The notes under the pieces were generated by a model. It worked only from the letters and a program-made list of their open reading frames with translations, did not search any database and was not told where the DNA came from. This document shows, one piece after another, positions 6,444-23,691 of a stretch of DNA of 64,000 nt; within the stretch, counting starts at the first letter, position 1, and each line of letters opens with the position of its first letter. Location: assembly GCF_003095375.1 (NCBI RefSeq), contig NZ_QEHR01000001.1, positions 434,001 through 498,000 on the forward strand, in the 5' to 3' direction. This DNA comes from Marixanthomonas spongiae (lineage in GTDB: Bacteria; Bacteroidota; Bacteroidia; Flavobacteriales; Flavobacteriaceae). Made by a program: the position numbers and the translations under genes.

Positions 6444-6531
6444 TTTTATTAATGTTTTATCACCAACTATCTTACTTCATTTCCAAAATTCTAAATATCT
6501 TTATACCTCAAGATAAGTTAACGAAAAAGAT

Positions 6532-6548
6532 ACCCGCCTTTGCGGGCA
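6532..6548 (+). repeat. Short CCCGC/GCGGG hairpin at the start of the dioxygenase gene
   Basis: ACCCGC, a short loop and GCGGG form a compact GC-rich hairpin in otherwise AT-rich DNA. It ends six bases before the ATG at 6554. The unit resembles the core of short palindromic repeats scattered in flavobacterial genomes; a related CCCGCC...GGGCAGG block occurs at 23863-23889. It could mask the ribosome entry site. Confidence 0.5.
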
Positions 6549-6553
6549 TTTAT

Positions 6554-7441
6554 ATGAAACAAGAAGACATCATAAAAGCAATAAACGAAAAATATACCGC
6601 CTTGGGCGAAAACCCCGACACTTACCTTAAAGGACTTTTAGAAGCCAAACCCATTAATTATTGGGACTATATTGAGGTGGAAACCTTGCTTTCCCTGCAA
6701 AAACCCCGTACCGATTATAAAGATGAAAAAATCTTTATCATGTACCATCAAGTAATTGAATTATTACTGAAAATGGTTCGGCATGAGGTGATTCAGTTAC
6801 ACGAAATGGACGGGGTGGACGAAGAAATCTGGCTCGATAAGTTTTCCCGATTGAACCGTTATGTGCATATGCTCATCACATCGTTTGATATTATGAAGGA
6901 CGGCATGAGCTATGAAGACTACAACACGTTCCGTGCTACCTTAACACCGGCCAGCGGATTTCAGAGTGCGCAATTTCGGTATATCGAAATTTACTGCACC
7001 AAATTGGAGAACCTGGTAAACGAAGAAGGCAAAAAACGGCTTCCTGATAATCCAACAGTTGAAGACTATTTTAAACATATTTATTGGCGCGATGCCGGTT
7101 ACAACCGCCAGAAAGGCACACGAACCTTGACGCTGCGACAGTTTGAAGAAAAATACCTAGATTCATTTATTGATCTTGCCAAAAAAACAAAAGGACAAAC
7201 CTTGGAAGAAAAGTTCCTTCAAGTAGAGAACCCTTCATCAGCTTTAAAAGACATAATCTTGGAATTCGACAAATTGTATAATGTAGAATGGCCTTTGGTG
7301 CATTTAAACACGGCCAAACACTATCTGGATAAAAAAGGGGAAACAAAAACCGCAACCGGTGGCTCGGAATGGAAAAAATACCTGCACCCTAAATTTCAGC
7401 AACGGAAGTTTTTCCCAACGCTTTGGAACGAAAAATCATGA
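6554..7441 (+). CDS. Tryptophan 2,3-dioxygenase family protein
   Basis: 295 residues. Predicted haem dioxygenase opening the indole ring of tryptophan (N-formylkynurenine formation, kynurenine pathway). The family hallmarks are 'FIMYHQVIELLLKMVRHEV' near residue 60 (equivalent of the substrate-side THQ helix), 'SGFQSAQFR', the haem-side 'LVHLNTAKHYL' and a C-terminal 'TGGSEWKKYL' followed by FFPTLW. An in-frame extension reaches 6452 but crosses the hairpin and has no family support, so I start at the Met before 'KQEDII'. The stop overlaps the next gene's ATG by four bases (ATGA). It could differ in substrate from true KynA. Confidence 0.85.
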   Translation: MKQEDIIKAINEKYTALGENPDTYLKGLLEAKPINYWDYIEVETLLSLQKPRTDYKDEKIFIMYHQVIELLLKMVRHEVIQLHEMDGVDEEIWLDKFSRLNRYVHMLITSFDIMKDGMSYEDYNTFRATLTPASGFQSAQFRYIEIYCTKLENLVNEEGKKRLPDNPTVEDYFKHIYWRDAGYNRQKGTRTLTLRQFEEKYLDSFIDLAKKTKGQTLEEKFLQVENPSSALKDIILEFDKLYNVEWPLVHLNTAKHYLDKKGETKTATGGSEWKKYLHPKFQQRKFFPTLWNEKS

Positions 7442-8991: not shown

Positions 8992-9103
8992 TTTCACAAA
9001 AACTTCCGTAAGCTTTTTGCGTTTCAGAAGACTACTTCCTTATATTTACCAAAGTAAAACCAAAACGGTTTAAATTTCGTAACTATAACAAATACCACCA
9101 ACC

Positions 9104-9436
9104 ATGGCAGATTATTATGACCCTAAAGACCTTCGTAAATTTGGAAAGATCACTGAATGGAGTGAAGAATTAGGAGAGAAATTTTTTGATTACTACGGAA
9201 AAGTCTTCGAAGAGGGCAAGCTCACAGCCCGTGAAAAATCGCTAATCGCATTGGCCGTGGCCCACACCGAACAATGCCCATATTGCATTGATGCCTACAC
9301 AAAAGATGCCTTACAACGCGGTGTTACCAAAGAAGAAATGATGGAAGCCATTCACGCAGGAGCGGCTATTAAAAGCGGGGCTACCTTGGTACACGGCGTG
9401 ATGATGATGAACAAAGTAAACAAACTCGACGGATAA
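9104..9436 (+). CDS. Arsenosugar-associated CMD/peroxidase-like protein
   Basis: 110 residues, carboxymuconolactone decarboxylase/AhpD-like fold. 'TAREKSLIALAVAHTEQCPYC' is split here into helix and CxxC motif: Cys58 and Cys61 form the redox pair, and 'IHAGAAIKSGATLVHGV' is the second conserved helix. This subfamily is typically encoded directly before the radical SAM gene arsS, as here (3-base gap). A peroxide- or thiol-redox role supporting arsenic chemistry is inferred from the CxxC and context. A TATATTTA element at 9051-9058 is a near match to a -7 box. Confidence 0.88.
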   Translation: MADYYDPKDLRKFGKITEWSEELGEKFFDYYGKVFEEGKLTAREKSLIALAVAHTEQCPYCIDAYTKDALQRGVTKEEMMEAIHAGAAIKSGATLVHGVMMMNKVNKLDG

Positions 9437-9439
9437 TCT

Positions 9440-10507
9440 ATGACCAAACTCAAAACACAATCCCTACATAAACGGAATAGCGAACTCGCACAATCCAACA
9501 AACAGCTTGAAATTCTCTCAAACGGAATTTTTGCCAATGGCGAGTTGCCCACATTTGCTGAAAAAATTGAAGAAACCGGGCAATTCCCGATGAAACCAAA
9601 AAAACTGGAAATCCTCCAGATTAATTTAGGGTATATGTGTAACCAAACTTGCGATCACTGTCACGTAGATGCTGGTCCCGACCGAAAGGAAATCATGACC
9701 GTCGAGACTATGAAACAATGTTTGGAAGTTATAAAAAACACCGGTGCCCACACAGTCGATCTTACCGGAGGTGCCCCAGAGATGAACCCGAATTTTAGAT
9801 GGTTTGTAGAAGAAGCCAGCAAAGCAGGGATTGAAGATTTTATAGTACGAAGCAACCTGACCATAATCCGGGCGAATAAAAAGTATTACGACCTACCGCA
9901 GTTTTTTAAAAAGCACAATGTGCACGTGATTAGCTCCATGCCACACTGGACGCGTGGAAAGACCGATAAACAACGTGGTGAAGGTGTTTTCGATATGTCT
10001 ATAAAAGCCTTGCAGGAATTGAACGCCATCGGATACGGAATGCCGGATAGCGATCTTCGATTGGACTTGGTGTACAACCCAAGTGGTGCTTTTTTACCGA
10101 CCAATCAAGAAAATATGAAAAAAGATTTTAAAAAAGCGTTACTGGAAGATTTCGGGATTCATTTCCACGACCTTTTTGCCATCACCAATTTGCCCATTGC
10201 CCGTTTTCTGGATTTTTTAATTGCTTCGGAAAACTATGAGGAATATATGTACCAATTGGTCGAAGCCTACAACCCTGCCGCCGTTAAAAACGTGATGTGC
10301 ACCAATACCATTTCCATTAGTTGGGACGGTTGGCTATACGATTGCGATTTTAACCAAATGCTGGAATTAAAGGTTGATAGCGACGTAAAGCATATTTCAG
10401 AATACAACGAAGACGTATTGAACGACCGAAACATCATCATTTCGCAACATTGCTACGGCTGTACCGCCGGTGCCGGCAGTAGCTGCCAAGGTTCTGTTGC
10501 CGACTAA
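9440..10507 (+). CDS. arsS: Arsenosugar biosynthesis radical SAM protein ArsS
   Basis: 355 residues. The radical SAM cluster motif CxxxCxxC is at Cys67, Cys71 and Cys74 ('GYMCNQTCDHCHVDAGP'). 'DLTGGAPEMNPNFR' follows as the SAM-binding GGE-like segment, and the C-terminus holds a Cys-rich tail (HCYGCTAGAGSSC). That combination defines the ArsS family, which transfers an adenosyl group to dimethylarsenite to give a 5'-dimethylarsinoyl-adenosine, precursor of arsenosugars. Some relatives are selenoproteins in the tail; here ordinary Cys codons are used. It joins the next gene through the same TAATCTATG junction seen before it. Confidence 0.92.
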   Translation: MTKLKTQSLHKRNSELAQSNKQLEILSNGIFANGELPTFAEKIEETGQFPMKPKKLEILQINLGYMCNQTCDHCHVDAGPDRKEIMTVETMKQCLEVIKNTGAHTVDLTGGAPEMNPNFRWFVEEASKAGIEDFIVRSNLTIIRANKKYYDLPQFFKKHNVHVISSMPHWTRGKTDKQRGEGVFDMSIKALQELNAIGYGMPDSDLRLDLVYNPSGAFLPTNQENMKKDFKKALLEDFGIHFHDLFAITNLPIARFLDFLIASENYEEYMYQLVEAYNPAAVKNVMCTNTISISWDGWLYDCDFNQMLELKVDSDVKHISEYNEDVLNDRNIIISQHCYGCTAGAGSSCQGSVAD

Positions 10508-10510
10508 TCT

Positions 10511-11191
10511 ATGAACAACAATACTGCAATATTAATTTTCGCCAATTCGGCTCAGCAAGAAAGGATTGCAAAACCCTTTCGGAAATCGGCGGATTTGTTT
10601 GGCACACTTAATAAGCAGACCCTCGCTAAGGTTAAAAAAACCGGCCTTCCCTATTTTTGTTTTTCTGAAAAAGAGCAAACTGGAAACACTTTTGGCGAAC
10701 GCTACGTCAATGCCATTCAATCGATTTACAACAAAGGTTTTGACAGGATTATAACCCTCGGAAACGATACACCGCATTTACAAACCCGCCACATTGTTGA
10801 AACCGCTAAAAAACTACAAGAGAACCCTATTGTTTTAGGGCCTTCAAAGGATGGCGGTTATTATATGATGGGGTTGCGCAAATCACATTTTGATAGCACA
10901 CTATTTCTGAAACTTCCGTGGCAGACTTCCAATTTAAACCGAAAGATCACACTGTTGTTCCGTTCAAAAAACATTCAAATAGAATGGCTGGAAACATTGA
11001 CGGATATCGACTCGGTTTCCGATGTTGAAATTATTCTGAACAGTTTCAGGAGACTTTCTTATTCATTAAAAAAATTACTTTCCAACCTTCTTATTTCTGA
11101 AAAGATTTTATTTGAGGTAACGCCCTTACCTTTTCAAAAAACACTTCAAAAAACACCTTTCAACAAAGGCTCGCCCAGTATTGCTTTATAA
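10511..11191 (+). CDS. DUF2064-type glycosyltransferase, divergent copy
   Basis: 226 residues. GT-A-like core with 'NTFGERYVNAIQSIYNKG', 'IITLGNDTPHLQ' (metal/nucleotide-binding acidic segment) and 'LGPSKDGGYYMMGL', the last being diagnostic of the arsenosugar-linked DUF2064 glycosyltransferases. Unlike the second copy at 19165-19854 it lacks the 'GKVKTRL' sugar-nucleotide loop near the N-terminus and carries a longer, poorly conserved tail after residue about 180. It may therefore be catalytically altered or use another donor. It lies 3 bases after arsS. Confidence 0.82.
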   Translation: MNNNTAILIFANSAQQERIAKPFRKSADLFGTLNKQTLAKVKKTGLPYFCFSEKEQTGNTFGERYVNAIQSIYNKGFDRIITLGNDTPHLQTRHIVETAKKLQENPIVLGPSKDGGYYMMGLRKSHFDSTLFLKLPWQTSNLNRKITLLFRSKNIQIEWLETLTDIDSVSDVEIILNSFRRLSYSLKKLLSNLLISEKILFEVTPLPFQKTLQKTPFNKGSPSIAL

Positions 11192-11227
11192 CAGAATATC
11201 TGAAAAGTAAAGTTGTTTAACGTGTCT

Positions 11228-11317
11228 GGTTGAGCGCAGTCGAAACCTTCATGATTATAGACAATTTGCAATCCTCGACTTTAGTTTATCCTGAGTGAAA
11301 CCGAAGGGCTCGAACAG
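11228..11317. repeat. Dispersed repeat pieces (TGAGCGCAGTCGAA family)
   Basis: TGAGCGCAGTCGAAACC near 11231-11247 and TATCCTGAGTGAAACCGAAGG near 11287-11307 (given here in pieces of no more than 20 bases: TATCCTGAGTGAAACC, then GAAGG) belong to a family also seen at 31096-31121 and 43210-43256. Non-coding, between the glycosyltransferase and susC-like genes. Confidence 0.55.
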
Positions 11318-11403
11318 ATAGCAAGCACTTTTTAGACATTCCACTCTCGATTGCTGAAATTTTTCAGCAAAGCACATATTTACTTACCAACCAACACAAA
11401 TTT

Positions 11404-14400
11404 ATGAAGCAATTATATATATGCTTATTGCTTTTTAGGACCGCAATAAGCTATTCTCAAATAACTGTTACTGGCACCGTGACAGATGCCGCAAATGGCA
11501 TGACTATCCCGTTTGTAAATGTGATTTCCAGCAATGGGGAAGCCACAACCACCGATAAAACCGGAAAATTCACGATTGAAATTTCAACCAACGAAGCTAT
11601 GTTGACTTTTTCTTCCATAGGATATAGCACTCAAACAGTATCTGTTGGTGATGCCACAGAGTTTTCAATTCGATTAAAAGAATCCACAACAAATTTAGAC
11701 GAGGTGGTCGTCACTGCATTGGGATTAAAACGGGAAACAAAGAAATTAGGCTACACGGTACAAACGTTGGATTCTGAAGGTATTAACGAAGTAAAGGCCG
11801 TCAATTTTTTGGACAATCTTTCCGGAAAATTGGCCGGGGTTACCGTGTCGCAAGGAGCAACGGGCGTGGGTTCGTCTTCAAAAATCACCATTCGGGGCGA
11901 ATCTTCTTTTTCAAACAACAACCCACTGTTTATAGTCGATGGAACACCCATTAACAACGAAACGGTCTTTAATTTTACCAACGAGGCCGCCTCGGGATTT
12001 CAAGAAATAGATTTTGGTAATGGCGCGATGGAAGTAAACCCTGACGATATTGAATCTGTTACGGTATTAAAAGGTCCTAGTGCTGCTGCTTTATATGGAA
12101 CACGTGCCTCAAACGGAGTTATTGTTATTGAAACCAAAGACGGTAGCAAAGCTAAAGGATTAGGTGTTAGTATTAATACGTCGCTTTTTGTGGAAACGCC
12201 TTTTAAACTTCCTGAATTTCAGAACGAATATGGACAAGGTAATGGTGGTGAATTCGCCTACGTAGATGGACTAGGTGGCGGCACAAACGACCTTATTAGT
12301 TATTCTTGGGGCCCACGACTGGATGTTGGTAACTTGATTCCGCAATACGACAGTCCGGTTACGCTGCCCGATGGCACGGTGGTTCGTGGCGGTGACACTT
12401 CGCTGTACAGTGGTTTGCCCATAACGCCAACACCTTTTGTGTCGCATCCAGATAATTTGAAAGATTTTTACCGAACTGGGGTTACCACTATTAACAACGC
12501 ATCGGTTTCCAATGGTTTCTCCACAGGCAGTTACCGTTTGTCCTTTACCGATTTGCGTAGCGAAGGGATTATTCCCGGTGTAAATTTAGATCGGCAAACC
12601 GTGGCTACAAAGCTTGCTTTTAAGCCCACCGATAAAACTAAATTTAACGCCTCTGTAAGTTATGTAAATTCAGGGAGTGACAACCGCCCATCCAATGGTT
12701 ACGGAAGTGAAAATGTAAACTATGCCTTGGTAGCGTGGGGACCACGTTCGTTGAACATCCAAAATATGCGCGATTATTGGCAGCCAGGACTGGAAGGCGT
12801 GCAGCAGTATTCGTTTAATTACACCTATTTTGACAATCCCTATTTTACCTTATTGGAAAACAGAAACTCGTTTGTGCGCGATCGTGTCTTCGGTAATATC
12901 TCTGTAACACAATATTTGACGAAGCATTTAAGTGTTTCGCTTCGTTCGGGAATGGATTACGCTTCTGAAAAACGCCAATTTAGACGTGCCTTTAGTAGCA
13001 ACCGGTTTAAAAATGGCGGCTATGCCGAACACGATGTACTATTTAGGGAAGTGAACACAGACTTCTTGATTAACTACAACACTATTTTTGGTGATATTTC
13101 GCTGGATATTTCCGCAGGGGGAAATCGGCTGGATCAAACGGCTACTACCAAGCAATCGCAAACGGTAAACTTGGCGCAGCCCGGTATTTTCAACCTCAAT
13201 AACGCCGCATCGCCCATTGAAGTATTTCAGTTTGAAAGCAAAAAACGCATTAATTCGTTCTACGGAATTGCAAAACTGGGCTATAAAAACTTTTTGTATT
13301 TAGACCTAACCGGCCGAAACGATTGGTCCAGTGCGCTGGCAACGCCTTTTTCGGTAGATGGTACCTCATTTTTTTATCCATCGGCCTCAGCAAGTTTTAT
13401 TCTTTCAAATGTAACAAAGTTGCCTGACGTATTTTCATTTGCAAAACTACGGGCCAGTGTTGCCCAAGTTGGTAACGACACGGCACCGTATCAAACCTCG
13501 GGAGCTTTTGTTTCGCAAACACCATATTTAGGACAACCTACCTTTAGCGATCAAAATTTTATCCCGAATTCAAACTTAAGACCGGAACAGACCACCTCGT
13601 TTGAATTTGGTGCCGACCTTCGGTTTTTCAAGGATCGCTTGAATTTTGATCTCACCTATTACAATACCTTAACGGAAGACCAAATTATTTCGTTGCCCAT
13701 TGGTATTTCCTCAGGTTACAACCAACAAGTCATAAACGGCGGAAAAGTACGAAACCAAGGGCTCGAAATCATAACTGGAATTACACCAATTAAAACAGCC
13801 GGTTTCCGCTGGAACACGACTTTCAATTTCAGCACAAATAAAGCGGTGGTAGAAGCCCTTCCGCAAAGTGACGGTCGGTTAACACTGGCTTTTAGCCGAA
13901 TTTACGACAGTGCCAACCAAACGGTTTGGTTTCAAGTGGAAGAAGGTGGCGAAGTGGGCGACATCTACGGAACAGGCTACACGAAAAATGAAAACGGCGA
14001 CTTTATCATCGATGAAAACGGCAACTATATTGCCGATAACAATCTCAAAAAAATAGGGAATTATACCCCAGATTTTATGTTGGGCTGGAACAACGATTTT
14101 CAATATAAAAACTGGAGCCTTGGTTTTTTGTTCGATTGGCGACAAGGCGGCGAATTGGTTTCCCGAACCCGTGCATTGGCAACAGTAGGCGGTCAATTGG
14201 CAGAAACCACCCCACGCCCGGAAGCAGGCATCATTGCCGACGGTGTTGTGAATATTGGCACTGAAGCAAATCCAGAATACGTAGCCAACACCACGGCTAT
14301 TTCGGCAGAAAGTTATTACCGCCAGTTTTACGACCGGAATCATGAAGAAAACAACGTGTATGATGCATCGTACTTAAAGCTTCGCCAATTTTCCATTGGA

Positions 14401-14616
14401 TATAGTTTTGAATTGAAAAAAGGCTTTTTAGGTCTGACCGAAGGCGGAAAGGTAAATTTTAACATTATTGGAAGGAATATTTTTGCGGTTTCAGAAATCC
14501 CGCATTTTGATCCCGAGCAACTGGCCGTTCAAGGAAACGGTTTTGTAAGCGGCGTTGAAGACATGAGCTACGCCACCACGAGAAGTATCGGTTTTAAAGC
14601 CGGAATTAATTTTTAA
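11404..14616 (+). CDS. SusC/RagA-type TonB-linked outer-membrane transporter
   Basis: 1070 residues. Signal peptide, then a carboxypeptidase-regulatory beta domain (about 20-100, 'TGTVTDAANGMTIPFVNV'), TonB-box region ('LDEVVVTALG'), plug domain with 'LAGVTVSQG' and 'NPLFIVDGTPI', and a large beta-barrel ending in 'SIGFKAGINF'. SusC proteins pull substrates bound by SusD through the outer membrane using TonB energy. Substrates vary widely and none can be read from sequence. No carbohydrate-active enzymes lie nearby; the gene sits inside an arsenosugar locus, so an arsenic-containing or nucleoside-like substrate is a hypothesis. One base separates it from the SusD gene. Confidence 0.95.
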   Translation: MKQLYICLLLFRTAISYSQITVTGTVTDAANGMTIPFVNVISSNGEATTTDKTGKFTIEISTNEAMLTFSSIGYSTQTVSVGDATEFSIRLKESTTNLDEVVVTALGLKRETKKLGYTVQTLDSEGINEVKAVNFLDNLSGKLAGVTVSQGATGVGSSSKITIRGESSFSNNNPLFIVDGTPINNETVFNFTNEAASGFQEIDFGNGAMEVNPDDIESVTVLKGPSAAALYGTRASNGVIVIETKDGSKAKGLGVSINTSLFVETPFKLPEFQNEYGQGNGGEFAYVDGLGGGTNDLISYSWGPRLDVGNLIPQYDSPVTLPDGTVVRGGDTSLYSGLPITPTPFVSHPDNLKDFYRTGVTTINNASVSNGFSTGSYRLSFTDLRSEGIIPGVNLDRQTVATKLAFKPTDKTKFNASVSYVNSGSDNRPSNGYGSENVNYALVAWGPRSLNIQNMRDYWQPGLEGVQQYSFNYTYFDNPYFTLLENRNSFVRDRVFGNISVTQYLTKHLSVSLRSGMDYASEKRQFRRAFSSNRFKNGGYAEHDVLFREVNTDFLINYNTIFGDISLDISAGGNRLDQTATTKQSQTVNLAQPGIFNLNNAASPIEVFQFESKKRINSFYGIAKLGYKNFLYLDLTGRNDWSSALATPFSVDGTSFFYPSASASFILSNVTKLPDVFSFAKLRASVAQVGNDTAPYQTSGAFVSQTPYLGQPTFSDQNFIPNSNLRPEQTTSFEFGADLRFFKDRLNFDLTYYNTLTEDQIISLPIGISSGYNQQVINGGKVRNQGLEIITGITPIKTAGFRWNTTFNFSTNKAVVEALPQSDGRLTLAFSRIYDSANQTVWFQVEEGGEVGDIYGTGYTKNENGDFIIDENGNYIADNNLKKIGNYTPDFMLGWNNDFQYKNWSLGFLFDWRQGGELVSRTRALATVGGQLAETTPRPEAGIIADGVVNIGTEANPEYVANTTAISAESYYRQFYDRNHEENNVYDASYLKLRQFSIGYSFELKKGFLGLTEGGKVNFNIIGRNIFAVSEIPHFDPEQLAVQGNGFVSGVEDMSYATTRSIGFKAGINF

Positions 14617-14617
14617 G

Positions 14618-16069
14618 ATGAAAACCATGAAAAACACACTCTATATATTCAGCTGTATCTGTTTGCTTGTTGCAAGTGGATGTACCAAAGATTTTAAAGA
14701 AATCAACACCAATCCCAATGCTCCTAATTCGGTACAGCCTTCATTATTGCTCAGACAGGTAATTTACGATTATGGCGAGCAAATGAGTTACGAAGGTTTT
14801 GTGGCTGGCGATTTATTGTCGCAGCACCGCACTGCATTGGATTTTAATTTATTTGATCGCCACGCCTTAAAGTCACCACAATTGGGTGGAAATCCTTGGC
14901 CTATTTTTTACACCAACCTTCGGGATAACCAGATAATAATCGAGCAATCCCAAACCATTGAAACCTTCGCCGTTTACGAAGGTCCAGCCTTGATTTTAAA
15001 AGCCTATATGGCAGCAGGCCTGACCGATTTATTTGGCGATGTCCCCTATTCTGAAGCATTTAATGGCGTAAATGGCACCGTAACCCCCAAATACGATAAA
15101 CAAGAAGATATTTATTTAGCTGAAGGTGGAATTATTGATAACCTCAACAAAGGGATTGCAGCGATTGAAGGGTATGAAGATGTGATTCCGTTAGAAGGCG
15201 ATATTTTATTCGATGGAAATTTAGAGAGCTGGATCACCTTTGCCAACTCCTTAAAGATAAAACAGTTGCTCCGTATTTCGGGAAAAGTAGATGTTTCTTC
15301 AGAATTGCAAACTATTTACAATGAAGGAAATTATTTAAAAACGAACGATCAAAATGCTATTTTCAACTTTACGAATACCGACCCCAATAGTTTCCGGTTG
15401 GCGCAACTTCGGATAGGCGATTTCAATAATTTTGTGCTTTCTGAAACGATGGAGGATATTTTAAAAGAGCTTAATGATGATCGAATTGGCGGATTTTTTC
15501 GTCCGTTTGAAAATTCAGATGCGGGGGAATTCAATGGATTGATCAATGGAATTGACGCCTCAAACACTTCTATTGAACTGGCAGATTATTCCTTGGCAGG
15601 CACTGCTTTTCGGGAAGATACGTCCACATTGGACGCCAACTTTTTAACAGCTTGGGAAACCTATTTCAATTTAGCTGAAGCTGCTGAACGCGGACTCATT
15701 TCAGCAGATGCACAGACGTTATACGAAACGGGTGTAACTCTAGCTTTTGAATATTGGCAAACAGAAATGCCCACAGATTATTTAACAGGATCGGCGGCTT
15801 ATGATGCAGCAGGGACCACACCAATGCAACAAATTATCACGCAAAAATGGATTGCCAATATCATTAACGGCTATGAAGGCTGGGTAGAATGGCGACGCAC
15901 CGGTTTCCCCGAATTTAAACCCGTAGCCGCCAGCTTAAACAATGGGATTATCCCAATACGGATGCCCTACCCAGCTGAAGAAGAAGCGTTGAATGCCGAA
16001 AATTACCAAGAAGCAGCCAACGCCACCGATGGCAATAGTATTAACGTACCGGTTTGGTGGGACGAATAG
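14618..16069 (+). CDS. SusD/RagB-type substrate-binding lipoprotein
   Basis: 483 residues. The signal peptide ends in a lipobox (LVASGC), then 'TKDFKEINTNPNAP' typical of SusD-like family 2 proteins, with helical TPR-like body and 'GWVEWRRTGFPEF' near the C-terminus, a strong SusD marker. It caps the SusC channel on the cell surface. Start is at 14618; a second Met three codons on (14627) is equally usable. Paired with the preceding transporter by a one-base gap. Confidence 0.93.
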   Translation: MKTMKNTLYIFSCICLLVASGCTKDFKEINTNPNAPNSVQPSLLLRQVIYDYGEQMSYEGFVAGDLLSQHRTALDFNLFDRHALKSPQLGGNPWPIFYTNLRDNQIIIEQSQTIETFAVYEGPALILKAYMAAGLTDLFGDVPYSEAFNGVNGTVTPKYDKQEDIYLAEGGIIDNLNKGIAAIEGYEDVIPLEGDILFDGNLESWITFANSLKIKQLLRISGKVDVSSELQTIYNEGNYLKTNDQNAIFNFTNTDPNSFRLAQLRIGDFNNFVLSETMEDILKELNDDRIGGFFRPFENSDAGEFNGLINGIDASNTSIELADYSLAGTAFREDTSTLDANFLTAWETYFNLAEAAERGLISADAQTLYETGVTLAFEYWQTEMPTDYLTGSAAYDAAGTTPMQQIITQKWIANIINGYEGWVEWRRTGFPEFKPVAASLNNGIIPIRMPYPAEEEALNAENYQEAANATDGNSINVPVWWDE

Positions 16070-16102
16070 TCCCCACTTTAAAAATAGAAATTATTCATCA
16101 GT

Positions 16103-16136
16103 TCCCCTCCCTTTTGGGGAGGGGTTAGGGGTGGGG
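16103..16136. repeat. Dispersed CCCCTCC repeat with a G-quadruplex motif
   Basis: CCCCTCC, a short loop and GGGGAGGGG form an inverted repeat. It continues into four G4 tracts (16116-16136: G4, A, G4, TTA, G4, T, G4), a textbook quadruplex-forming pattern on the plus strand. The same consensus is scattered in many flavobacterial genomes. Located between the SusD and symporter genes. Confidence 0.7.
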
Positions 16137-16203
16137 ACTCTTAAAAACAACAAAGGGGGTTGGGCTTGCCTGCCGCCAAGGCAGAGAGGACTTTTAAGAA
16201 TAT

Positions 16204-16230
16204 CCTGCAAGGTTTTTAAAACCTTGTAGG
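16204..16230. repeat. Inverted repeat CCTGCAAGG/CCTTGTAGG
   Basis: CCTGCAAGGTTTT faces TAAAACCTTGTAGG, near-perfect 13-bp arms. It ends 15 bases before the symporter ATG, so transcripts from the SusCD genes would carry a strong hairpin here. The pattern is another dispersed flavobacterial palindrome. Confidence 0.65.
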
Positions 16231-16245
16231 TCTAAAGAAAAGATT

Positions 16246-17580
16246 ATGAACGTAACAATCTGGCAATGGGGACTGATAATCGTATCGAGTTTGATACTGT
16301 TTTTTCTATCGCCTTTGGCAAAATCCACCGACCAATTTTTTAAGGCGACCCACCGCAAAAAAGCACCCTCTGCATTATGGTTAACGGGAAGCTTGATTAT
16401 CTCTTGGATTTTTGCCAAAAGCATTACCAATGCAGCAAATCTGGGGTTGGATTTTGGTATTGTTGGGGGTGTCGCCTATGCCGGTTATTACCTGTCATTT
16501 GCCGTTGCCGGGGTTTTAATTTACCAACTTAGGGTTCAAGGAGGGTTTAAAAGCATCCACGATTTTTTAACCAACCGTTTTGGCAAAGGAGCGATGGCTT
16601 TGTTCTCTATTTTGATTGCCATTCGGCTTTTTAACGAAGTGTGGAGCAATACCATTGTAATTGGAACTTATTTTGGCGACCAAGGCAGCACACCGTATTA
16701 TTGGGCAATTTTAGTTTTTACCACCTTGACCTTGGCGTATGCCATAAAAGGCGGGTTGAGCAGTTCGATTTTTACCGATGTGATTCAAATGGGGCTTTTT
16801 GCCATTTTACTTGTTGTTATTTTAGGGGCTATTTTTTCTACGGAAGATTTTACAGTTCAAGAAGTAGCAACATCCGGCTCTTGGACATTTGAACTAGGTC
16901 TGAATTTATTTTTTGCCGCCATTATTCAATCGTTCAGCTATCCGTTTCACGATCCGGTATTGACCGACCGGGCTTTTTTAAGTTCGCCAAAAGTGACGCG
17001 GCGTAGTTTTTTATGGGCCAGTTTATTGGGCGGGATTTGTATTGTACTGTTTAGCGTTATTGGCGTGTATGCCCAATCGCAAGGAATGAAAGGACAAGCA
17101 GCGGTTGAAGTAGGCAAGGCATTTGGCGTCGTGATATTATTGGTCATAAATTTTATCATGATCACCTCGGCCGCTTCCACATTGGATTCTACGTTTTCAT
17201 CCTTTTCAAAACTATTGGCAGTCGATTTAAAAATGGGCATCGACCTTACCTTCGGAAGAGCATCTATGGCAGCAATTGCCATTTTAGGCACAATTCCCGT
17301 GTTTTTAAATGCTGAAATATTATCGGCTACCACCATTTCGGGCACTATGGTCATCGGCTTGACGCCCGTATTCTTGTTCTGGAAACTTCCAGCACCTAAA
17401 ATCAGTTTTTATTTAAGTGTTATTTGCGGATTGGTCTTTGGTTTTTTATTGGTTTTTGAACTTTTCCCGCAACAACTTATTTTTACCAAAGGAAAATATG
17501 CCGACTTACTTTGGGTGAACGTTTGGGGCATTTTAAGCTGTTTCATTTTATATTTGACACCTACATGGATAAAAAAATAG
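16246..17580 (+). CDS. Sodium:solute symporter family permease
   Basis: 444 residues with about 12 hydrophobic helices, SSS (LeuT-fold) type. Recognisable segments are 'LTGSLIISWIFAKSITNAANLG', 'AYAIKGGLSSSIFTDVIQM' (the classical SSS signature GG...TD..Q) and a PFHDPVLTDRAF stretch. Some positions are given in parts to stay short. It imports a small solute with Na+. Which solute is unknown; location between SusCD and a metallophosphatase makes import of the same substrate across the inner membrane a reasonable inference. It overlaps the next gene by 16 bases. Confidence 0.85.
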   Translation: MNVTIWQWGLIIVSSLILFFLSPLAKSTDQFFKATHRKKAPSALWLTGSLIISWIFAKSITNAANLGLDFGIVGGVAYAGYYLSFAVAGVLIYQLRVQGGFKSIHDFLTNRFGKGAMALFSILIAIRLFNEVWSNTIVIGTYFGDQGSTPYYWAILVFTTLTLAYAIKGGLSSSIFTDVIQMGLFAILLVVILGAIFSTEDFTVQEVATSGSWTFELGLNLFFAAIIQSFSYPFHDPVLTDRAFLSSPKVTRRSFLWASLLGGICIVLFSVIGVYAQSQGMKGQAAVEVGKAFGVVILLVINFIMITSAASTLDSTFSSFSKLLAVDLKMGIDLTFGRASMAAIAILGTIPVFLNAEILSATTISGTMVIGLTPVFLFWKLPAPKISFYLSVICGLVFGFLLVFELFPQQLIFTKGKYADLLWVNVWGILSCFILYLTPTWIKK

Positions 17581-18389
17581 AACATATAAACATACAAGGC
17601 AAAGTGCTGCTTTTTGGCGGCGTTTACAGCAATTTGCAAGCGCTTGAAAAACTGAAAAACATTGCCGAAAAAAACAATATCCCGCCTGAAAATTGCATTT
17701 GTACGGGAGATATTGTGGGGTACTGTGCGCAACCTGAAGAAACTGTTCAACTATTTAAGTTATGGGGCGCCAAAAGTATTGCCGGGAACGTAGAAATACA
17801 ATTGCGGGAAGGTGCTGAAGACTGTGGTTGCGATTTTAAAAAAGGATCTCGCTGCGATGGGTTTTCGCAATTGTGGTACCCGTATGCGCAAAGTAAACTT
17901 TCAAAAAGCTCATTGGATTTTATAAAAGAATTACCCGACCATATTCGGTTTACGCACGCCGGAAAAAAGACAACGGTTGTTCATGGTTCGTGGTTTAATA
18001 TTTCAGAATTCATCTTTAAATCAACACCTTGGAAGGTAAAACAGCCCAATTTTGAAGCCTCAAATAGCGATATAATTATCGCCGGACATTGTGGATTGCC
18101 GTTTCATCAAACCGAAAACAAAAAAACATGGATAAACCCTGGGGTTATCGGTATGCCCGCAAATGATGGGAACCCGCAGGTTTGGTACGCCATTTTGGAT
18201 GATACTGACGGAAAACCATCGATTACACACCGTACTATGGATTATAACCACAAATTAACCAGCAACCTCATGCGCAATGGCTTATTGCCCGAAGAATACG
18301 CCCGAACGATCATTACCGGAATTTGGGACAATACTGAAATTTTACCTCCAGTAGAAAGCGGATTGCAAGGGTTTGGCGTTCAACTGTAA
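17565..18389 (+). CDS. Calcineurin-like metallophosphatase
   Basis: 274 residues starting at the Met before 'DKKIEHINIQGKV'; an earlier TTG at 17511 is not needed. 'LLFGGVYSNLQALEKL', 'CTGDIVGYCAQPEETV', 'SIAGNVE', 'GHCGLPFHQ' and 'WINPGVIGMPANDGNPQ' are the metal-binding GD, GN, GH and NPG blocks of the family, with the first Asp block altered (GGVYSN instead of DxHGN). In this locus it could remove phosphate from a ribose phosphate produced by the phosphorylase. That role is inference. The 16-base overlap implies coupling to the symporter. Confidence 0.83.
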   Translation: MDKKIEHINIQGKVLLFGGVYSNLQALEKLKNIAEKNNIPPENCICTGDIVGYCAQPEETVQLFKLWGAKSIAGNVEIQLREGAEDCGCDFKKGSRCDGFSQLWYPYAQSKLSKSSLDFIKELPDHIRFTHAGKKTTVVHGSWFNISEFIFKSTPWKVKQPNFEASNSDIIIAGHCGLPFHQTENKKTWINPGVIGMPANDGNPQVWYAILDDTDGKPSITHRTMDYNHKLTSNLMRNGLLPEEYARTIITGIWDNTEILPPVESGLQGFGVQL

Positions 18390-18460
18390 TTCATAGCATT
18401 TTAACATCAAAACAACGGGCAAGCAATTTGATATTATGTAATTTTAACGTCCCAAACAAT

Positions 18461-18964
18461 ATGAAGCATTTACTTTATTTTTTCCTGCTCTTAATTTCCA
18501 TAAGCGGATTTTCACAACAACGGTCATTGGAAGACCTTTTACAGCAGTACAACACCCGTAGCATTCCTTATATTTCGGTGGAAGAACTTCGTATGAAGCA
18601 AATGAACGATTCTGTAGTGATTCTGGATGCTAGGGAACAAAAAGAATACAATGTAAGCCATATTGCTTCAGCAAAATATGTAGGGTTTTCAAAATTTTCG
18701 ATTGATTCGGTTGCCAATAGAATTCCTAATAAAAATACTCCCATTGTGGTGTATTGTTCGTTGGGGATCCGTTCTGAAGAAATTTCAGAAAAACTGAAAA
18801 AAGCCGGATATACCAACATAGAAAACCTCTACGGTGGTATTTTTGAGTGGAAAAACAAGGACTATCCAACTGTAAACAATCAAGGGAAAGAAACAGACAG
18901 CATCCACGGTTTTTCGAAAAACTGGAGCAAATGGCTGGACAAAGGGCCTATAATTATTAAATAA
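18461..18964 (+). CDS. Exported rhodanese-like protein
   Basis: 167 residues from the Met before 'KHLLYFFLLLISISGFSQ'; the signal peptide ends at 'SGFSQ'. Rhodanese domain follows with 'VVILDAREQKEYNVSHI' and the active-site loop 'VYCSLGIRSEE', whose Cys would carry persulfide or bind the substrate. An earlier ATG-frame start at 18428 would hide the signal peptide. Arsenate reductases also use a rhodanese-like fold, but nothing here proves an arsenic role. It is periplasmic by the signal. It lies in the arsenosugar locus, 71 bases after the metallophosphatase. Confidence 0.88.
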   Translation: MKHLLYFFLLLISISGFSQQRSLEDLLQQYNTRSIPYISVEELRMKQMNDSVVILDAREQKEYNVSHIASAKYVGFSKFSIDSVANRIPNKNTPIVVYCSLGIRSEEISEKLKKAGYTNIENLYGGIFEWKNKDYPTVNNQGKETDSIHGFSKNWSKWLDKGPIIIK

Positions 18965-19013
18965 CTAATGTAAATCAAAATAGTAAAGGGTGAAAAGTAT
19001 TGAAACTATATAA

Positions 19014-19087
19014 AGTTACTGAGTTACTAAGTTATTGTGTTATTGGATTGTCTCTAACTAACCTAATAACTCAATAAACAATAACTT
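19014..19087. repeat. Degenerate GTTACT/GTTATTG tandem and inverted repeat
   Basis: AGTTACTG, AGTTACTA, AGTTATTG and TGTTATTG run in tandem from about 19014. AAGTTATTGTGTTATTG at 19029-19045 is nearly inverted by CAATAAACAATAACTT at 19072-19087. It fills most of the 200-base gap between the rhodanese and glycosyltransferase genes. Confidence 0.6.
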
Positions 19088-19164
19088 GTAAGCAGCCTTA
19101 TTTGAAAGAAAGCAGCACAGGTTATATTACTATAAATAATTTTAAAATCATTAAATAGAGTCCA

Positions 19165-19854
19165 ATGGGTTTATTCACAAAAAATAACGTTGGCGGCGAT
19201 GAAGACTTGGCCAAAGATTTTCATTTTCCCACTTCAAAAAAAGCACTTATTATTTTTACCCGAAATCCAGAGCTGGGAAAGGTAAAAACACGTTTGGCCA
19301 CCAGTGTGGGTGACGAATCTGCTTTAAAAATCTATAAATTTTTAGTGCAACACACGGCAGAGATCACAGCAAATGTACAAGCAGATAAGTTTGTATATTA
19401 TAGTGAAGGCATTCAAAAAGAAGACAGTTGGGACAACAATACTTACAGTAAAAAATTACAACAAGGTGACGACTTAGGCATTCGTATGTACAATGCGTTT
19501 ACTGAAGTTTTTTCGCTTGGTTATGACCAAGCCATCATCATTGGCAGCGATATGTACGATTTGACCACGGAAGACCTCAACAATGCTTTTACGGCATTAA
19601 AAGACCACGACTATGTAATTGGCCCTGCCAAAGATGGCGGTTATTATCTTCTGGGCATGAAGCAACCCAACCAAGCCATTTTCAGTAAAAAAGAATGGGG
19701 AAAGGATTCGGTATTGCAAGCCACGCTTGACGATTTAAAAAATGAAACCGTAAAAAAACTGGAAGAACGAAACGATGTCGATTTTTATGGTGATATTAGA
19801 GACAATGAGGCTTTTCAAGAGTTTTTACCCGATTATCTCGACACTGATTTTTAA
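19165..19854 (+). CDS. Arsenosugar-associated glycosyltransferase (DUF2064)
   Basis: 229 residues. 'ALIIFTRNPELGKVKTRLAT' is the nucleotide-sugar loop, then 'AIIIGSDMYDLT' (metal-binding) and 'IGPAKDGGYYLLGMK'. This is the full-motif member of the family found beside arsS genes; these are annotated as glycosyltransferases linked to arsenosugar formation, acting on the ribosyl-arsenic unit. It has a 20-residue N-terminal extension before the core. It stops 15 bases before the nucleoside phosphorylase gene. Confidence 0.88.
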   Translation: MGLFTKNNVGGDEDLAKDFHFPTSKKALIIFTRNPELGKVKTRLATSVGDESALKIYKFLVQHTAEITANVQADKFVYYSEGIQKEDSWDNNTYSKKLQQGDDLGIRMYNAFTEVFSLGYDQAIIIGSDMYDLTTEDLNNAFTALKDHDYVIGPAKDGGYYLLGMKQPNQAIFSKKEWGKDSVLQATLDDLKNETVKKLEERNDVDFYGDIRDNEAFQEFLPDYLDTDF

Positions 19855-19869
19855 TTTTAAAAGTAAATT

Positions 19870-20682
19870 ATGTTTGAATATATAAAAGAATCTGCCGACT
19901 ATTTAAAGGATAAAGGATTTGACAAACCTGAAATTGGCATTATTCTCGGCACTGGCCTCGGCAAATTGTTAGAAGATGTTGAAGTACAAAGCGAAGTTAG
20001 TTACAATCACATTCCCAATTTCCCGACTGCTACCGTAGAATTTCATAAAGGGAAACTCATTTTCGGGATGTTGGGCGGCAAAAAAGTGATGGTCATGCAA
20101 GGCCGTTTTCATATTTACGAAGGCTACTCGTTGCAGGATGTTACCTTTCCCGTGCGGGTAATGCACGAGTTGGGCATTAAAAAACTGCTAATTAGCAATG
20201 CTTCTGGAGCAGTGAACCTCAACTTCAAAAAAGGGGAAATTATGCTGATCGATGATCATATTAACCTGCAAGGAAGTTCGCCATTGGCCGTTCGCGGTAT
20301 TGAAAAAATGGGCGAACGCTTTGTCGATATGAGCGCACCTTATGATGCTGAAATGAACAGCCTGATAGAGCAAATCGCTTCAGAAAAAAACATCAGTATT
20401 CACAAAGGCGTCTATGCCAGTGTGGTGGGACCACAACTGGAAACCCGTGCCGAGTACCGCTATTTAAAAATTATCGGTGCCGATGCCGTAGGGATGAGCA
20501 CCGTTCCTGAAATTATTGTTGCCAACCATTTGGGGTTGCCCGTTTCGGCCGTTTCGGTGTTGACAGACGAATGTGACCCAGATAATTTAAACCCGGTTGA
20601 TATTGCTGATATTCTGGCCATGGCAGCAAAAGCCGAGCCCGATATGATTACTTTGTTTACGGAGTTGATAAAGAAATTATAA
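19870..20682 (+). CDS. Purine nucleoside phosphorylase (trimeric PNP-I type)
   Basis: 270 residues. Splits purine nucleosides with phosphate into base and ribose 1-phosphate. Motifs: 'GIILGTGLGKLLEDV', 'VMQGRFHIYEGYSLQDVTFP', 'LISNASGAVNLNF', 'VVGPQLETRAEYRYLK' and 'IGADAVGMSTVPE' for the substrate Glu/Met/Asn region. Length equals the usual 270-290. The gene lies 15 bases after the glycosyltransferase, so here it may cleave adenine from dimethylarsinoyl-adenosine as well as serve purine salvage. It ends three bases before the convergent fusion gene without a visible terminator. Confidence 0.93.
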   Translation: MFEYIKESADYLKDKGFDKPEIGIILGTGLGKLLEDVEVQSEVSYNHIPNFPTATVEFHKGKLIFGMLGGKKVMVMQGRFHIYEGYSLQDVTFPVRVMHELGIKKLLISNASGAVNLNFKKGEIMLIDDHINLQGSSPLAVRGIEKMGERFVDMSAPYDAEMNSLIEQIASEKNISIHKGVYASVVGPQLETRAEYRYLKIIGADAVGMSTVPEIIVANHLGLPVSAVSVLTDECDPDNLNPVDIADILAMAAKAEPDMITLFTELIKKL

Positions 20683-20685
20683 CAA

Positions 20686-23600
20686 CTAATAAGCTTTCAT
20701 AAAATCTTCTCCAAAAACAATCCGCAACTTATCAATAAGCTCTTGGGCGTGCTCCTTGTTAAAAACCACGGGAGGTTTTATTTTTAATACATTGTAGTCG
20801 GGACCATCGGTGCTCATTAAAACGCCCAAAGTTTTCATTCGGTCAGAAAGGTACGCAGCGTGTTCGGCCAAGGGATTTTTATTGTTGTCTGTGAGTTCAA
20901 ACCCTAAAAAAAGGCCTTCCCCCCTAACATCGCCAATGATCGGGGATTCTTTTTGAAGCTGAAGCAATCCGGATTTTAAAAATGCGCCAGTTTCCAAGGC
21001 ATTTTGTTGCAGGTTTTCTTCTTCAATTACTTCCAACACTGTTCGCCCGATGGCACATGAAACGGGATTGCCGCCAAACGTATTGAAAAACTCCATCCCA
21101 GTATGGAATTTCTCCGATATTTCTTTTGTACACGCTACCACTGCCAGTGGATGCCCGTTACCCGCCGGTTTGCCCATCGTTACAATATCGGGCACCACGT
21201 CGAACAATTCAAAAGCCCAGAATGTTTTTCCCATCCGGCCAAAACCTGTTTGTACCTCATCGGCAATGCAAATTCCTCCAGCTTCCCGAACCGTTTTATA
21301 TACTTTCTTAAAGTAATTTTTGGGCGGAACAATCTGTCCGCCGCAACTTATCATCGATTCTCCTATAAAACCAGCGATACCTTTATCCATTCCCCTTAAA
21401 TGCTCAATATGCCTTGTGGCATAATTAGCATATTCTGTTCCAGCGTTTTTGCCACAGTGTTTTCCTCGAAAGATATCGGGCAATGGTAAAATATGGGTGT
21501 TTGCAGGTTGTGGAAAGCCGCCTTTACCATCAAATTTATAAGAGCTCACGTCCATAACCGCATTGGTGTTGCCGTGGTACCCAACTTCGATGGCCAACAT
21601 ATTTTCCTGTCCGGTTACTGTTTTTGCCATGCGTAACGCAAGTTCATTGGCCTCACTACCGGAATTGACGAAATGAAGCACCGAAAGTTCCTTGGGTAGC
21701 TTTTTCAGTAATGCTTCAGCATAATTTATTATTTCTTTGTGCAAATAGCGCGTATTGGTATTCAACACTGCCATTTGTTGTTGCCCGGCCGCTACTACTT
21801 TGGGGTGTTGATGCCCTACGTGATTTACATTATTAGCGGTATCGATGTATTTTTTTCCGTCGGAATCTATTAAATATACGCCTTCACCTCTTACAATATG
21901 TAAGGGTTCAGAATAGGAAAGACTCAAGCTTTTTCCTAAATGCTCTTTTCTGAAATCAATGATTTCTTCATCTGAGATTTTCTCTGGTGTATCTTGTGTT
22001 TCTTCGGTAAACAACAGACCGGGGTTTTGACAAATGCTTTTCCAAACCTGTTGTTCCGAAGGAAAAGCCACACCTGGAAAATTTTCGGTGTTTCCCAGCA
22101 AATCGAGCATCACTTGAAAATGAAGGTGTGGTGTCCAAATTCCGTTTTCCGAAGCATCGCCAATATAGCCTATCAATTCGCCTTGTTTGACTTCTTGGCC
22201 AATTTTGGTCAACTCCAACGAAGAAAGTGTTAAATGACCGTACAGGGTGTAAAATGGATTACCTTCAAATTCGTGTTCCAAAACCATTAAAGGACCATAG
22301 TCTTTTAAGTAGTTATTGTGGTGAAGGATGACCACTTTTCCGTCATACGCGGCGTGGAGCGGTGTTTTGGCAGCGACCCAAAAGTCGGTGCCCAAGTGTA
22401 CTGTTCGGTATTGCGGGCCGTTGTTACCGTCCATTCTAAAGGCTTTGGTGGTGTAAAAAGGACGGACTTCCATATATCCATTCGCTAAAATGCTTTCAGG
22501 GTTTTCTGCTTCAATTTGTTTCAGTTTATATGCGGTGATATCGGTATCGCTGTACTCTTCTTTATTCCCTAACCACGTACTGCCAATACTCATATCGACA
22601 TGGGTAACATTCTTAAACTTCAAAGAAGGAAAAAGCGTGTTCAACGATATTTTATTATTTACAACCCACTCTTTAAATTCGTATTCTTTTGGGTGTGGTG
22701 TATAATCGCAGGCATTTCTGAAATTATACAACACAAAGCTCTCATACGTACCATACCAATGTTTCAACAATTGCCACGCATCGTGTTCACTGATAAAATG
22801 ATATACATTTTGGGAAACATCTGCCCTTCGCAAGGCCGCTTTTGTAACCGTTATTACCAAGCGCATACCAACAAGTGTATAGAGGCATTCCAATTCTTTT
22901 TCGGAAAGCTTGTATTTTGAATGGTAGCCTTGAACGATTTCCACGGCTGCTGCCAATGGATCTGGCGTATTCATAATGGCATAGGCAATCGTGATGGCCA
23001 AATCGTTTATGGTTTGGGTATAAACGGCATCCCCAAAGTCAATAATCCCGGTAACCTCAGGGTTTTTTAAATTAGATGAAACGATGATGTTATGGTCGTT
23101 CACATCGTTATGCACCACGCTCTTCGGAAGGGATTGATAAACCAGTTGAATTTCCTGAAACCGCTCCTGAAAAAACGAGACCATATCCTTTTCAATATCC
23201 TTAAAAAGGTCGGTGTATTTTTCGGTCCAAAGCGCATCGGCCAAATTCCAGTCAAACGATCTATTGGCTTGGGGATGTTGAAAATTCTGTAATGCTGTTG
23301 TGATTTCGCCGGCCTTTTCCCCTAAACTAAATCGCAGTTTTGAGGTTTTTGGGTTTACATGGGCCCAAAGCCTTCCGGGAAGCCACGTAAGCAAACGTGC
23401 TGTTCTTTTCTCTTCGGAAATGATAGCTGAAGTTAATGGCTTCCCTTCCTTGTTTAAGAGTATTTCGGAAAATTGACAGCTTGTTTTTTTAGAAGCCAAA
23501 TGCTCCAAAACCGCTGTTTGAAATTGTAAAAAACGGTCATCTGTTTCAGTAACGGCAACCTTTAAAAGATATGTGTTGCCGTTTTCTGAAACCACTTTAA

Positions 23601-23691
23601 AGTTTTCGTCCTCATCGCCTTGTAGGGCCGAAGCTTTAACGGTAAACCCATAGTGTTCCAGTACTATTTGAGAGGCAATTTCCGCAGTCAT
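20686..23691 (-). CDS. Three-domain fusion: APH-like kinase, M23-like domain, class III aminotransferase-fold phospho-lyase
   Basis: 1001 residues. Domain 1 (about 1-320) is an aminoglycoside/hydroxylysine-kinase fold with 'HNDVNDHN' at 194-201 and the DFG at 218-220. Domain 2 (about 425-535) is an M23-like LytM fold with HxxxD at 432-436 and HxH at 522-524, so the zinc ligands are present. Domain 3 (about 590-1001) is a class III PLP enzyme with '[13 protein letters not shown]' and the lysine segment '[11 protein letters not shown]', the form seen in ethanolamine-phosphate and phosphohydroxylysine phospho-lyases. The kinase plus lyase logic implies phosphorylation then elimination of an amino alcohol; the role of the middle domain is unknown. 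Confidence 0.9.

Follow-up and report, generated by a model that had tools for sequence, protein, structure and literature searches.

A transport and metallophosphoesterase cassette in the arsenosugar operon of Marixanthomonas spongiae: a possible importer of methylated arsenic

The 64,000-nucleotide stretch of the Marixanthomonas spongiae genome analysed here (the window, C1:434001-498000 of an assembly, G000, of 3.4 Mb and 99.7% completeness) carries an arsenosugar operon with an inserted cassette of five genes. These encode a divergent glycosyltransferase-like protein (GT1), a SusC/SusD outer-membrane pair (SusCD), a Na+ symporter-like permease and a protein of the metallophosphoesterase fold (MPE). 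We give about an even chance to the proposal that a methylated As(V) compound enters through the cassette and is reduced by the MPE for the radical SAM enzyme ArsS, so that the methyltransferase ArsM is bypassed. The broader form of the proposal is that many marine flavobacteria and some distant Bacteroidota scavenge methylated arsenic through a TonB/Na+ importer and a new kind of reductase, a cysteine-using MPE with one metal site, and can drop ArsM without giving up arsenosugars; this we hold with rather less confidence, at somewhat below even chances.

The arsenosugar operon and its inserted cassette

Between positions 9104 and 20682 lie ten intact genes, in the order CMD-ArsS-GT1-SusC-SusD-symporter-MPE-rhodanese-GT2-PNP, where CMD is a CMD/AhpD-like protein, GT2 a second glycosyltransferase and PNP a purine-nucleoside phosphorylase (Table 1). 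All are on the plus strand, as the first-pass annotation of this DNA had stated, and the 15 bases that it placed between a glycosyltransferase and the phosphorylase are indeed the gap between GT2 and PNP. The identical ten-gene order is found in other named genomes, for example Aequorivita lipolytica (L152), and because it recurs in this way it is not due to chance.

Table 1. Features of the arsenosugar operon, its cassette and the site of arsM loss; positions are those of the window.
Feature	Position	Strand	Evidence
CMD/AhpD-like arsenosugar-associated protein (CMD), CPYC thiol motif	9104..9436	+	TIGR04169 187.4 bits, cut-off 120
ArsS, arsenosugar radical SAM enzyme	9440..10507	+	TIGR04167 435.2 bits, cut-off 300
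Cassette	10508..18437	+	7930 bases between ArsS and rhodanese vs 26 bases in L135 (blastn)
GT1, divergent DUF2064/TIGR04282-like, without KTRL motif	10511..11191	+	TIGR04282 99 bits, below cut-off 134
SusC/RagA TonB-dependent outer-membrane transporter	11404..14616	+	TIGR04056 594.8 bits, cut-off 368
SusD-like_2 lipoprotein	14618..16069	+	PF12771 300.7 bits
Na+/solute symporter-like permease, divergent	16246..17580	+	TIGR00813 38.1 bits, cut-off 184
MPE, site 1 lost, Cys-Gly-Cys (C87, C89) invariant; proposed methylated-arsenate reductase	17565..18389	+	PF12850; conservation in 94 orthologues
Rhodanese	18458..18964	+	NF045521 'rhoda_near_glyco' 204 bits, cut-off 145
GT2, arsenosugar glycosyltransferase	19165..19854	+	TIGR04282 216.6 bits, cut-off 134
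PNP, purine-nucleoside phosphorylase	19870..20682	+	NF006054 344 bits, cut-off 218
arsM-loss site after PNP	20682..20686	.	Exact loss of about 970 bases, vs L135 only

ArsS scores above its cut-off in 288 of the 397 genomes drawn from the family, in 156 of 395 drawn from the phylum and in 7/7 genomes of the genus. A total of 137 arsS neighbourhoods were fetched. Of these, 80 belong to the family but not to the genus; they were hand-picked, mostly one per genus, from about 150 best-scoring ArsS places and are not a random sample. They contain CMD in 78 cases, GT2 in 61, PNP in 59, ArsM in 55, rhodanese in 48 and a GT1-like gene in 20. The set CMD-ArsS-rhodanese-GT2-PNP, often with arsM, is the common flavobacterial arsenosugar operon. 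This core is already familiar to the NCBIfam curators, down to the rhodanese family named 'rhoda_near_glyco', and the CPYCIDA sequence of CMD is present in 202 of 207 matched open reading frames. SusC, SusD, the symporter and the MPE, on the other hand, are each found in only 3 of these 80 loci, and therefore form an optional module and not part of the core pathway. The first-pass annotation had taken absence of SusCD, symporter, phosphatase or rhodanese from other arsS loci as refuting its reading, and by this measure it fails in part, on the four transport and MPE genes. A second type of operon also occurs in the family, with the order GT1-CMD-ArsS and with rhodanese-GT2-PNP absent from the fetched span (L022, L024, L030, L051, L053 and others).

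The insertion can be seen directly by comparison with cassette-free genomes of the same genus. The window is 88.9% identical to L135 over positions 9003-10507, and homology resumes at 18438. In L134 there are 19 bases at the cassette site and homology resumes at 18444, and in L138 there are 141 bases and it resumes at 18454. The order GT1 and then SusC-SusD-symporter-MPE, between ArsS and the rhodanese, is shared by the window with L054, L079, L080, L136 and L139; in L137 the contig ends inside SusC. In two loci from other families (L098 and L099) the four-gene block lies beside ArsS without GT1.

Named genomes were then scanned with eight MPEs (A1), and the best 80 of 454 relatives were kept, a set that leans to the window's own type. 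In these best 80 of 454 the symporter adjoins the MPE in 80/80 loci, ArsS and CMD are within the fetched span in 77/80, SusC and SusD are present in 73/80 and GT1 in 70/80. Of the three loci with no ArsS and CMD in the span, two (L151 and L206) are truncated by the end of a contig. Seven loci keep the symporter and MPE in the absence of GT1, SusC and SusD, and for this reason the symporter-MPE pair is regarded as the heart of the cassette. In the window the two genes overlap, as first annotated, with the symporter stop at 17580 and the MPE start codon at 17565.

Two of the cassette proteins are only distantly related to named families. GT1 passes the Pfam model DUF2064 (71.8 bits, cut-off 25.8) and falls under the TIGR04282 cut-off. 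The first-pass annotation had ArsS, CMD and two DUF2064 glycosyltransferases as arsenosugar partners, and the arsenosugar association is supported. A KTRL-type motif is found in 0/76 cassette GT1 proteins, vs 137/164 for GT2; GT1 proteins of cassette-free loci likewise lack it (0/18). The symporter is below the PF00474 cut-off too (20.6 vs 22.8 bits), and from both family scores it is only a distant relative of the SSS family. Its AlphaFold2 model has a pLDDT of 40.6, and a search of PDB sequences gave no match at E<=1.

The metallophosphoesterase-fold protein

The MPE passes PF12850 (41.0 bits, cut-off 27) but no NCBIfam model, the best score being 25 bits against a cut-off of 117. Its nearest named homologue, within the best 80 of 454 relatives, is from Marixanthomonas (L151, 89%). 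AlphaFold2 predicts a metallophosphoesterase fold (pLDDT 87, pTM 0.89), the nearest PDB structures being 3qfm (E 5e-14) and 3rqz. Conservation was analysed using the motif names DxH, GD, GNHD, H and GHxH, with the MPE ligands assigned to these motifs and to metal sites 1 and 2. In 94/94 orthologues other residues stand in place of the motif I Asp and His, the GNHD His and the final His of GHxH, while D49, N75, H140 and H175 are kept in 94/94, and C54, C87, C89 and C97 are likewise present in 94/94. The MPE thus departs from the residue set of a dinuclear metallophosphatase, having lost site 1 and kept site 2. Conservation as tight as this points to a changed function and not to decay. The earlier suggestion that this protein is a metallophosphatase removing phosphate was rejected on the loss of the site-1 ligands: it is probably no phosphatase, and resembles instead an arsenate reductase of the Car1 type.

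This resemblance came from more distant relatives. On plasmids, 39 records of MPE relatives were found, and the surroundings of four were examined. Three of these relatives, with 25-29% identity, are all in ars operons: the order is ArsR-MPE-Acr3-ArsM in Paraclostridium, while in Hymenobacter the MPE is with Acr3 and ArsC and in Pedobacter with Acr3. According to PMC12124457, an ars-operon MPE of this kind shares about 40% identity with Car1, the Rufibacter tibetensis arsenate reductase; it has Cys74 and Cys76, which the same source reports as essential in Car1. The C87-G88-C89 of the window (within DCGC) aligns with D73-C74-G75-C76 of the first Pedobacter MPE and of L102, and the CGC of the Paraclostridium and Hymenobacter proteins falls in the same alignment columns.

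It might be asked whether the MPE is simply another arsenate reductase, in a cassette that serves arsenate or phosphate handling. The ars operons around the three relatives fit this, as does the arsenate reduction reported for Car1 (PMC12124457). However, the MPE is always in genomes with ArsS (58/58, see below), and the cassette type differs from the ars-operon type at the three metal-site-1 residues: the site-1 ligands missing from the cassette type are kept in the ars-operon relatives, although the His of GNHD is Tyr there too. Nor is there a known reason why arsenate should be imported through SusCD. This explanation is accordingly rated very unlikely.

MPE-CMD fusions occur in L098, L234 and L235, and seven further genomes have open frames of fusion length, candidates for the same arrangement. 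Together with the CPYC motif of CMD, the fusions suggest that CMD may be a thiol-redox partner of the MPE.

It is worth adding that MPEs also occur as tandem pairs. On a Pedobacter plasmid (L256, 4998-6509) a pair lies beside Acr3, one copy having the Cys-Gly-Cys and the other not, and from these sequences the two are possibly an arsenate reductase and a non-redox partner. Another pair is found in L102 (2726-4172), the first copy of which is the one in the alignment.

Loss of arsM

The reference for ArsM was the family NF038099, 'arsenosugar biosynthesis arsenite methyltransferase', to which L015 scores 562 bits. In the cassette-free L134, L135 and L138 the order is ArsS, rhodanese, GT2, PNP, ArsM. 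Window 19165-20684 corresponds to L135 10951-12467, and window 20680-22989 to L135 13436-15745, the ArsM open reading frame of L135 being at 12455-13438. Since homology resumes just past arsM, it is the methyltransferase gene alone that is missing from the window in this comparison. In L134 and L138 the distance from PNP to the next shared gene is about 4.3 kb, starting with arsM, so that relative to these two the window is without arsM and about 3.3 kb more.

The first-pass annotation had reported no arsM in the window, which is correct, and had placed methylation elsewhere. That conclusion is not supported, and the telling observation is that the whole genome, as far as searched, yielded no ArsM: the best match to PRK11873 is 50.6 bits (cut-off 263), there is no match to an ArsM protein at E<=1e-8, and there is no NF038099 match at E<=1e-20. 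Four genes came out of the PRK11873 search, namely UbiE/MenG, PrmA, RlmD and the unassigned L013 (257 aa). A survey with Methyltransf_25 gave 20 matches, and further scans covered six of these genes. None of these searches turned up a canonical ArsM. An arsenite exporter, Acr3, is present (434 bits).

Within the genus, a genome-wide ArsM match is found in G445, G773 and G774, whose loci have no cassette, and in G776, which bears at least part of it, and none is found in the present genome, G654 and G775, all of which bear the cassette.

Convergent to the operon, at the junction left by arsM, is a gene for a PRK06148-like protein of 1001 aa (20686-23691, minus strand; 1096 bits, cut-off 1128), with a class III aminotransferase at residues 574-990. 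It is read as a fusion of this domain with putative phosphotransferase and M23-peptidase parts.

Co-occurrence with ArsS and ArsM

The MPE was sought (A1, E<=1e-40) in the draws of 397 family and 395 phylum genomes. It is present in 51 of the former and 9 of the latter, making 58 distinct genomes with the window's own included, and ArsS is present in 58/58 (compared by hand, and by script for the 51 of the family). In the family draw this is 51/51 with the cassette vs 288/397 overall (hypergeometric 2e-8), and in the phylum draw 9/9 vs 156/395 (2e-4); both draws include the genome of the window. Where both places are known, the MPE and ArsS are within about 10 kb on one contig in 18 of 21 genomes; in G403 there is no ArsS in the fetched 15 kb. 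The view that SusCD and the symporter are a dedicated transport system, already put forward in the first-pass annotation, is upheld by a conserved unit that keeps such company.

The relation to ArsM runs the other way. ArsM is over its cut-off in 20/49 genomes with the cassette, vs 201/232 ArsS genomes without (odds ratio 0.11, Fisher 9e-11). The test covers 281 ArsS genomes: seven (G765, G766, G768-G772) were dropped as outside the 388-genome draw, two of which bear the cassette, so that 49 of the 51 are counted. Genomes without a listed match were taken as drawn and negative, and the genome lists were transcribed by hand. Neither cassette nor ArsM is found in 31 ArsS genomes, 17 of which have a weaker methyltransferase match. 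Twelve genera have members in both states; in six of these ArsM is only in the cassette-free member, in six it is in both, and the reverse is found in none. In genera that never have the cassette, ArsM is found in a member of 132/147.

An ArsS tree of 175 loci, scored for local ArsM state only, gave nine supported independent pairs, on average 4.9 in the predicted way and 0.2 in the other (median p 0.0625). Leaving out the 80 loci that had been selected for bearing the cassette reduces this to six pairs, 2.9 vs 0.0 (median p 0.25).

Several Polaribacter and Leeuwenhoekiella loci have ArsM directly after the MPE, and L236 has it before GT1. Because such loci carry both, the cassette does not exclude ArsM; it seems rather to make ArsM dispensable.

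A proposed role for the cassette

From the gene content and boundaries, the exact insertion, the loss of arsM, the patterns of co-occurrence and anti-occurrence and the residue conservation, we infer the following substrate, direction of transport, reductase activity and product. The core of CMD, ArsS, rhodanese and GT2 would build the arsenosugar, as it does in most flavobacteria with this pathway, and the cassette would feed this core from outside. SusCD would bring a methylated arsenical across the outer membrane using TonB energy, the simplest candidate being dimethylarsinate or a precursor of it, and the Na+ symporter would carry it across the inner membrane. The MPE, as a Car1-like thiol reductase, would convert As(V) to As(III); CMD, with which it is fused in some genomes, may serve as its thiol partner. 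Dimethylarsinate in seawater is pentavalent and needs reduction, whereas ArsM makes the trivalent form directly. An imported arsenical would thus call for a reductase where the ArsM product does not, which would explain why the MPE is paired with a permease and why ArsM becomes dispensable. ArsS would then adenosylate the reduced arsenical; PMC12159101 cites ArsS-type adenosylation of arsenic as part of arsenosugar synthesis.

The cassette is frequently present where ArsM is missing, which suggests that its bearers take up methylated arsenic from other organisms and do not produce their own. Dimethylarsinate occurs dissolved in seawater: a central Atlantic average of 3.2 nmol dimethylarsinate per litre is quoted in PMC6426599, which also describes its release by phytoplankton and its use by SAR11.

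A further, independent hint as to transport comes from the Roseomonas haemaphysalidis plasmid NZ_CP061178.1. An operon there (L252, 2862-9822) encodes a TIGR04282 protein, a DUF547 protein, two radical SAM proteins and an ABC importer of the PhnD/PhnE/PhnC type, with an MPE last. This MPE is 39% identical to that of the window over 96% and has the same motif pattern except C54. In the importer, PhnE is over its cut-off, the binding protein is over TIGR01098 and below PhnD, and the ATPase is below PhnC. A different type of importer is therefore paired here with the same kind of MPE. Methylated arsenates are analogues of the phosphonates that such importers carry, and by its gene content the operon is perhaps another pathway to an arsenic (or other oxyanion) natural product.

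A number of observations count against the proposed role. SusCD systems usually serve larger solutes, and dimethylarsinate is small for one. The loss of metal site 1 may make it doubtful that a Car1-like activity has carried over to the cassette MPE, and the Roseomonas radical SAM proteins include no true ArsS (best ArsS score 61 bits vs 300). The cassette is free-standing in G320, G371 and G072, on a contig other than that of ArsS, and in L230 there is no ArsS in the fetched 20 kb, a contig end not being the cause. As for ArsM, its retention in 20 of the 49 cassette genomes means that there is no simple replacement; the MPE is directly followed by ArsM in G531 and G707; genera that always have the cassette have ArsM in a member of 12/24; and G776 has ArsM together with at least GT1 and part of SusC. 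Conversely, 14 ArsS genomes have no cassette and no ArsM match at E<=1e-20. The tests on the ArsS tree, which control for kinship, are only suggestive. Finally, the best NCBIfam match of the methyltransferase-like L013 in the present genome is an ArsM-fusion model, a weak match of 43.9 bits vs 575.

The usual size of SusCD solutes would be better suited by the import of ready-made algal arsenosugars or arsenolipid fragments, which the MPE would reduce and the cell recycle. Many of the 80 named cassette hosts (best 80 of 454) are in marine genera, for example Polaribacter and Algibacter, and PMC12124457 reports activity on As(V) for a member of the MPE family. Yet import of a finished product would not need ArsS, which 51/51 cassette genomes of the family draw possess, and we regard such recycling as unlikely. 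An arsenosugar or other organoarsenical is a possible imported substrate.

Alternatively, the cassette could import a partner that contains no arsenic, such as a peptide or a sugar-acceptor molecule, and its relation to ArsM would be indirect. The nearest solved chain to SusC is 5fq6_B (BT_2264, 417 bits), a peptide importer and not the SusC of a glycan locus. Moreover, the glycosyltransferase-like GT1 tracks SusC, the two being present or absent together in the 80 cassette loci except L151, L172 and L206. Such an import would, however, leave unexplained both the scarcity of ArsM alongside the cassette and the Car1-like cysteines of the MPE, and it is considered rather improbable. We therefore retain, at the even chance given above, the import and reduction of a methylated arsenical.

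The purine-nucleoside phosphorylase

The first-pass annotation had proposed a complete nucleoside-to-arsenosugar pathway, in which PNP would cleave dimethylarsinoyl-adenosine and the metallophosphatase would take off the resulting phosphate. PNP is indeed in 59 of the 80 fetched family arsS loci, and it has Asp at the position of human Asn243, which could favour 6-amino purines. The same Asp is found in 138/141 sequences with ArsS (three being unread), but also in 10/10 from genomes without ArsS and in two out of three aligned PNPs of solved structure; it is therefore not diagnostic, and was rejected as a sign of adenosine use. PNP is the sole PNP match in its own genome, and all ten of the ArsS-lacking family genomes examined have one. 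Being a sole copy that is kept without ArsS and with the same Asp, PNP may owe its place in the operon merely to conserved gene order, and a role as a dedicated pathway enzyme is not supported. For the second step, the MPE is without metal site 1 and is absent from 77 of the 80 fetched family loci. The nucleoside-phosphorylase route is thus highly improbable.

Other features of the window

Upstream of the operon, at 6452-7441 on the plus strand, is a distant relative of tryptophan 2,3-dioxygenase (93 bits, cut-off 390.7). Further away, on the minus strand, two adjacent genes at 46740-49952 and 49954-50706 encode proteins of 1070 and 250 aa with no NCBIfam match at E<=1e-10.

Significance

To our knowledge, why bacteria make arsenosugars, and where heterotrophs obtain methylated arsenic, are open questions. 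If the proposed role is correct, the cassette is a dedicated importer for a methylated arsenical and gives SusCD a role outside nutrition, and a metallophosphoesterase has been turned into an organoarsenical reductase. Methylating and scavenging organisms would then divide arsenosugar synthesis between them. The proposal predicts which genomes rely on their neighbours for methylated arsenic, and would tie phytoplankton to flavobacteria in the marine cycling of arsenic. It can be tested directly in related strains that differ in the cassette and arsM. Among the matches listed in the open-licence literature there is no SusCD, TonB transporter or metallophosphoesterase tied to arsenosugar synthesis, which is a weak absence, and no account of the transport cassette, of its relation to ArsM or of a Car1-like MPE in arsenosugar loci.

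Comparison with known systems

The operon is recognisably the arsenosugar locus of NCBIfam (TIGR04167, TIGR04169, TIGR04282, NF038099), with ArsS, CMD and GT2 all above the curated cut-offs. It differs in the 7.9 kb of transport and MPE genes inserted into it, and in that arsM is found neither in the locus nor in the genome. With polysaccharide utilization loci it shares a SusC/RagA and SusD-like_2 pair accompanied by an inner-membrane permease; unlike these, there is no degradative carbohydrate enzyme family among its ten genes, and the nearest solved relative of its SusC is BT_2264.

The MPE can be compared with Car1 (Shen et al. 2024, as far as that protein is described in PMC12124457), the comparison being made through relatives and not with Car1 itself. 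The two have in common the fold, a Cys-Gly-Cys at the matching place and, in the relatives, an arsenic context. The cassette MPE differs in being without the metal-site-1 residues (94/94), in its additional invariant C54 and C97, and in accompanying an importer and sometimes being fused to CMD. There is also a parallel with SAR11, which in the account of PMC6426599 is a marine heterotroph using dimethylarsinate released by phytoplankton. SAR11, however, oxidises the methyl groups, whereas the cassette-bearing bacteria would retain the arsenical and incorporate it into a sugar.

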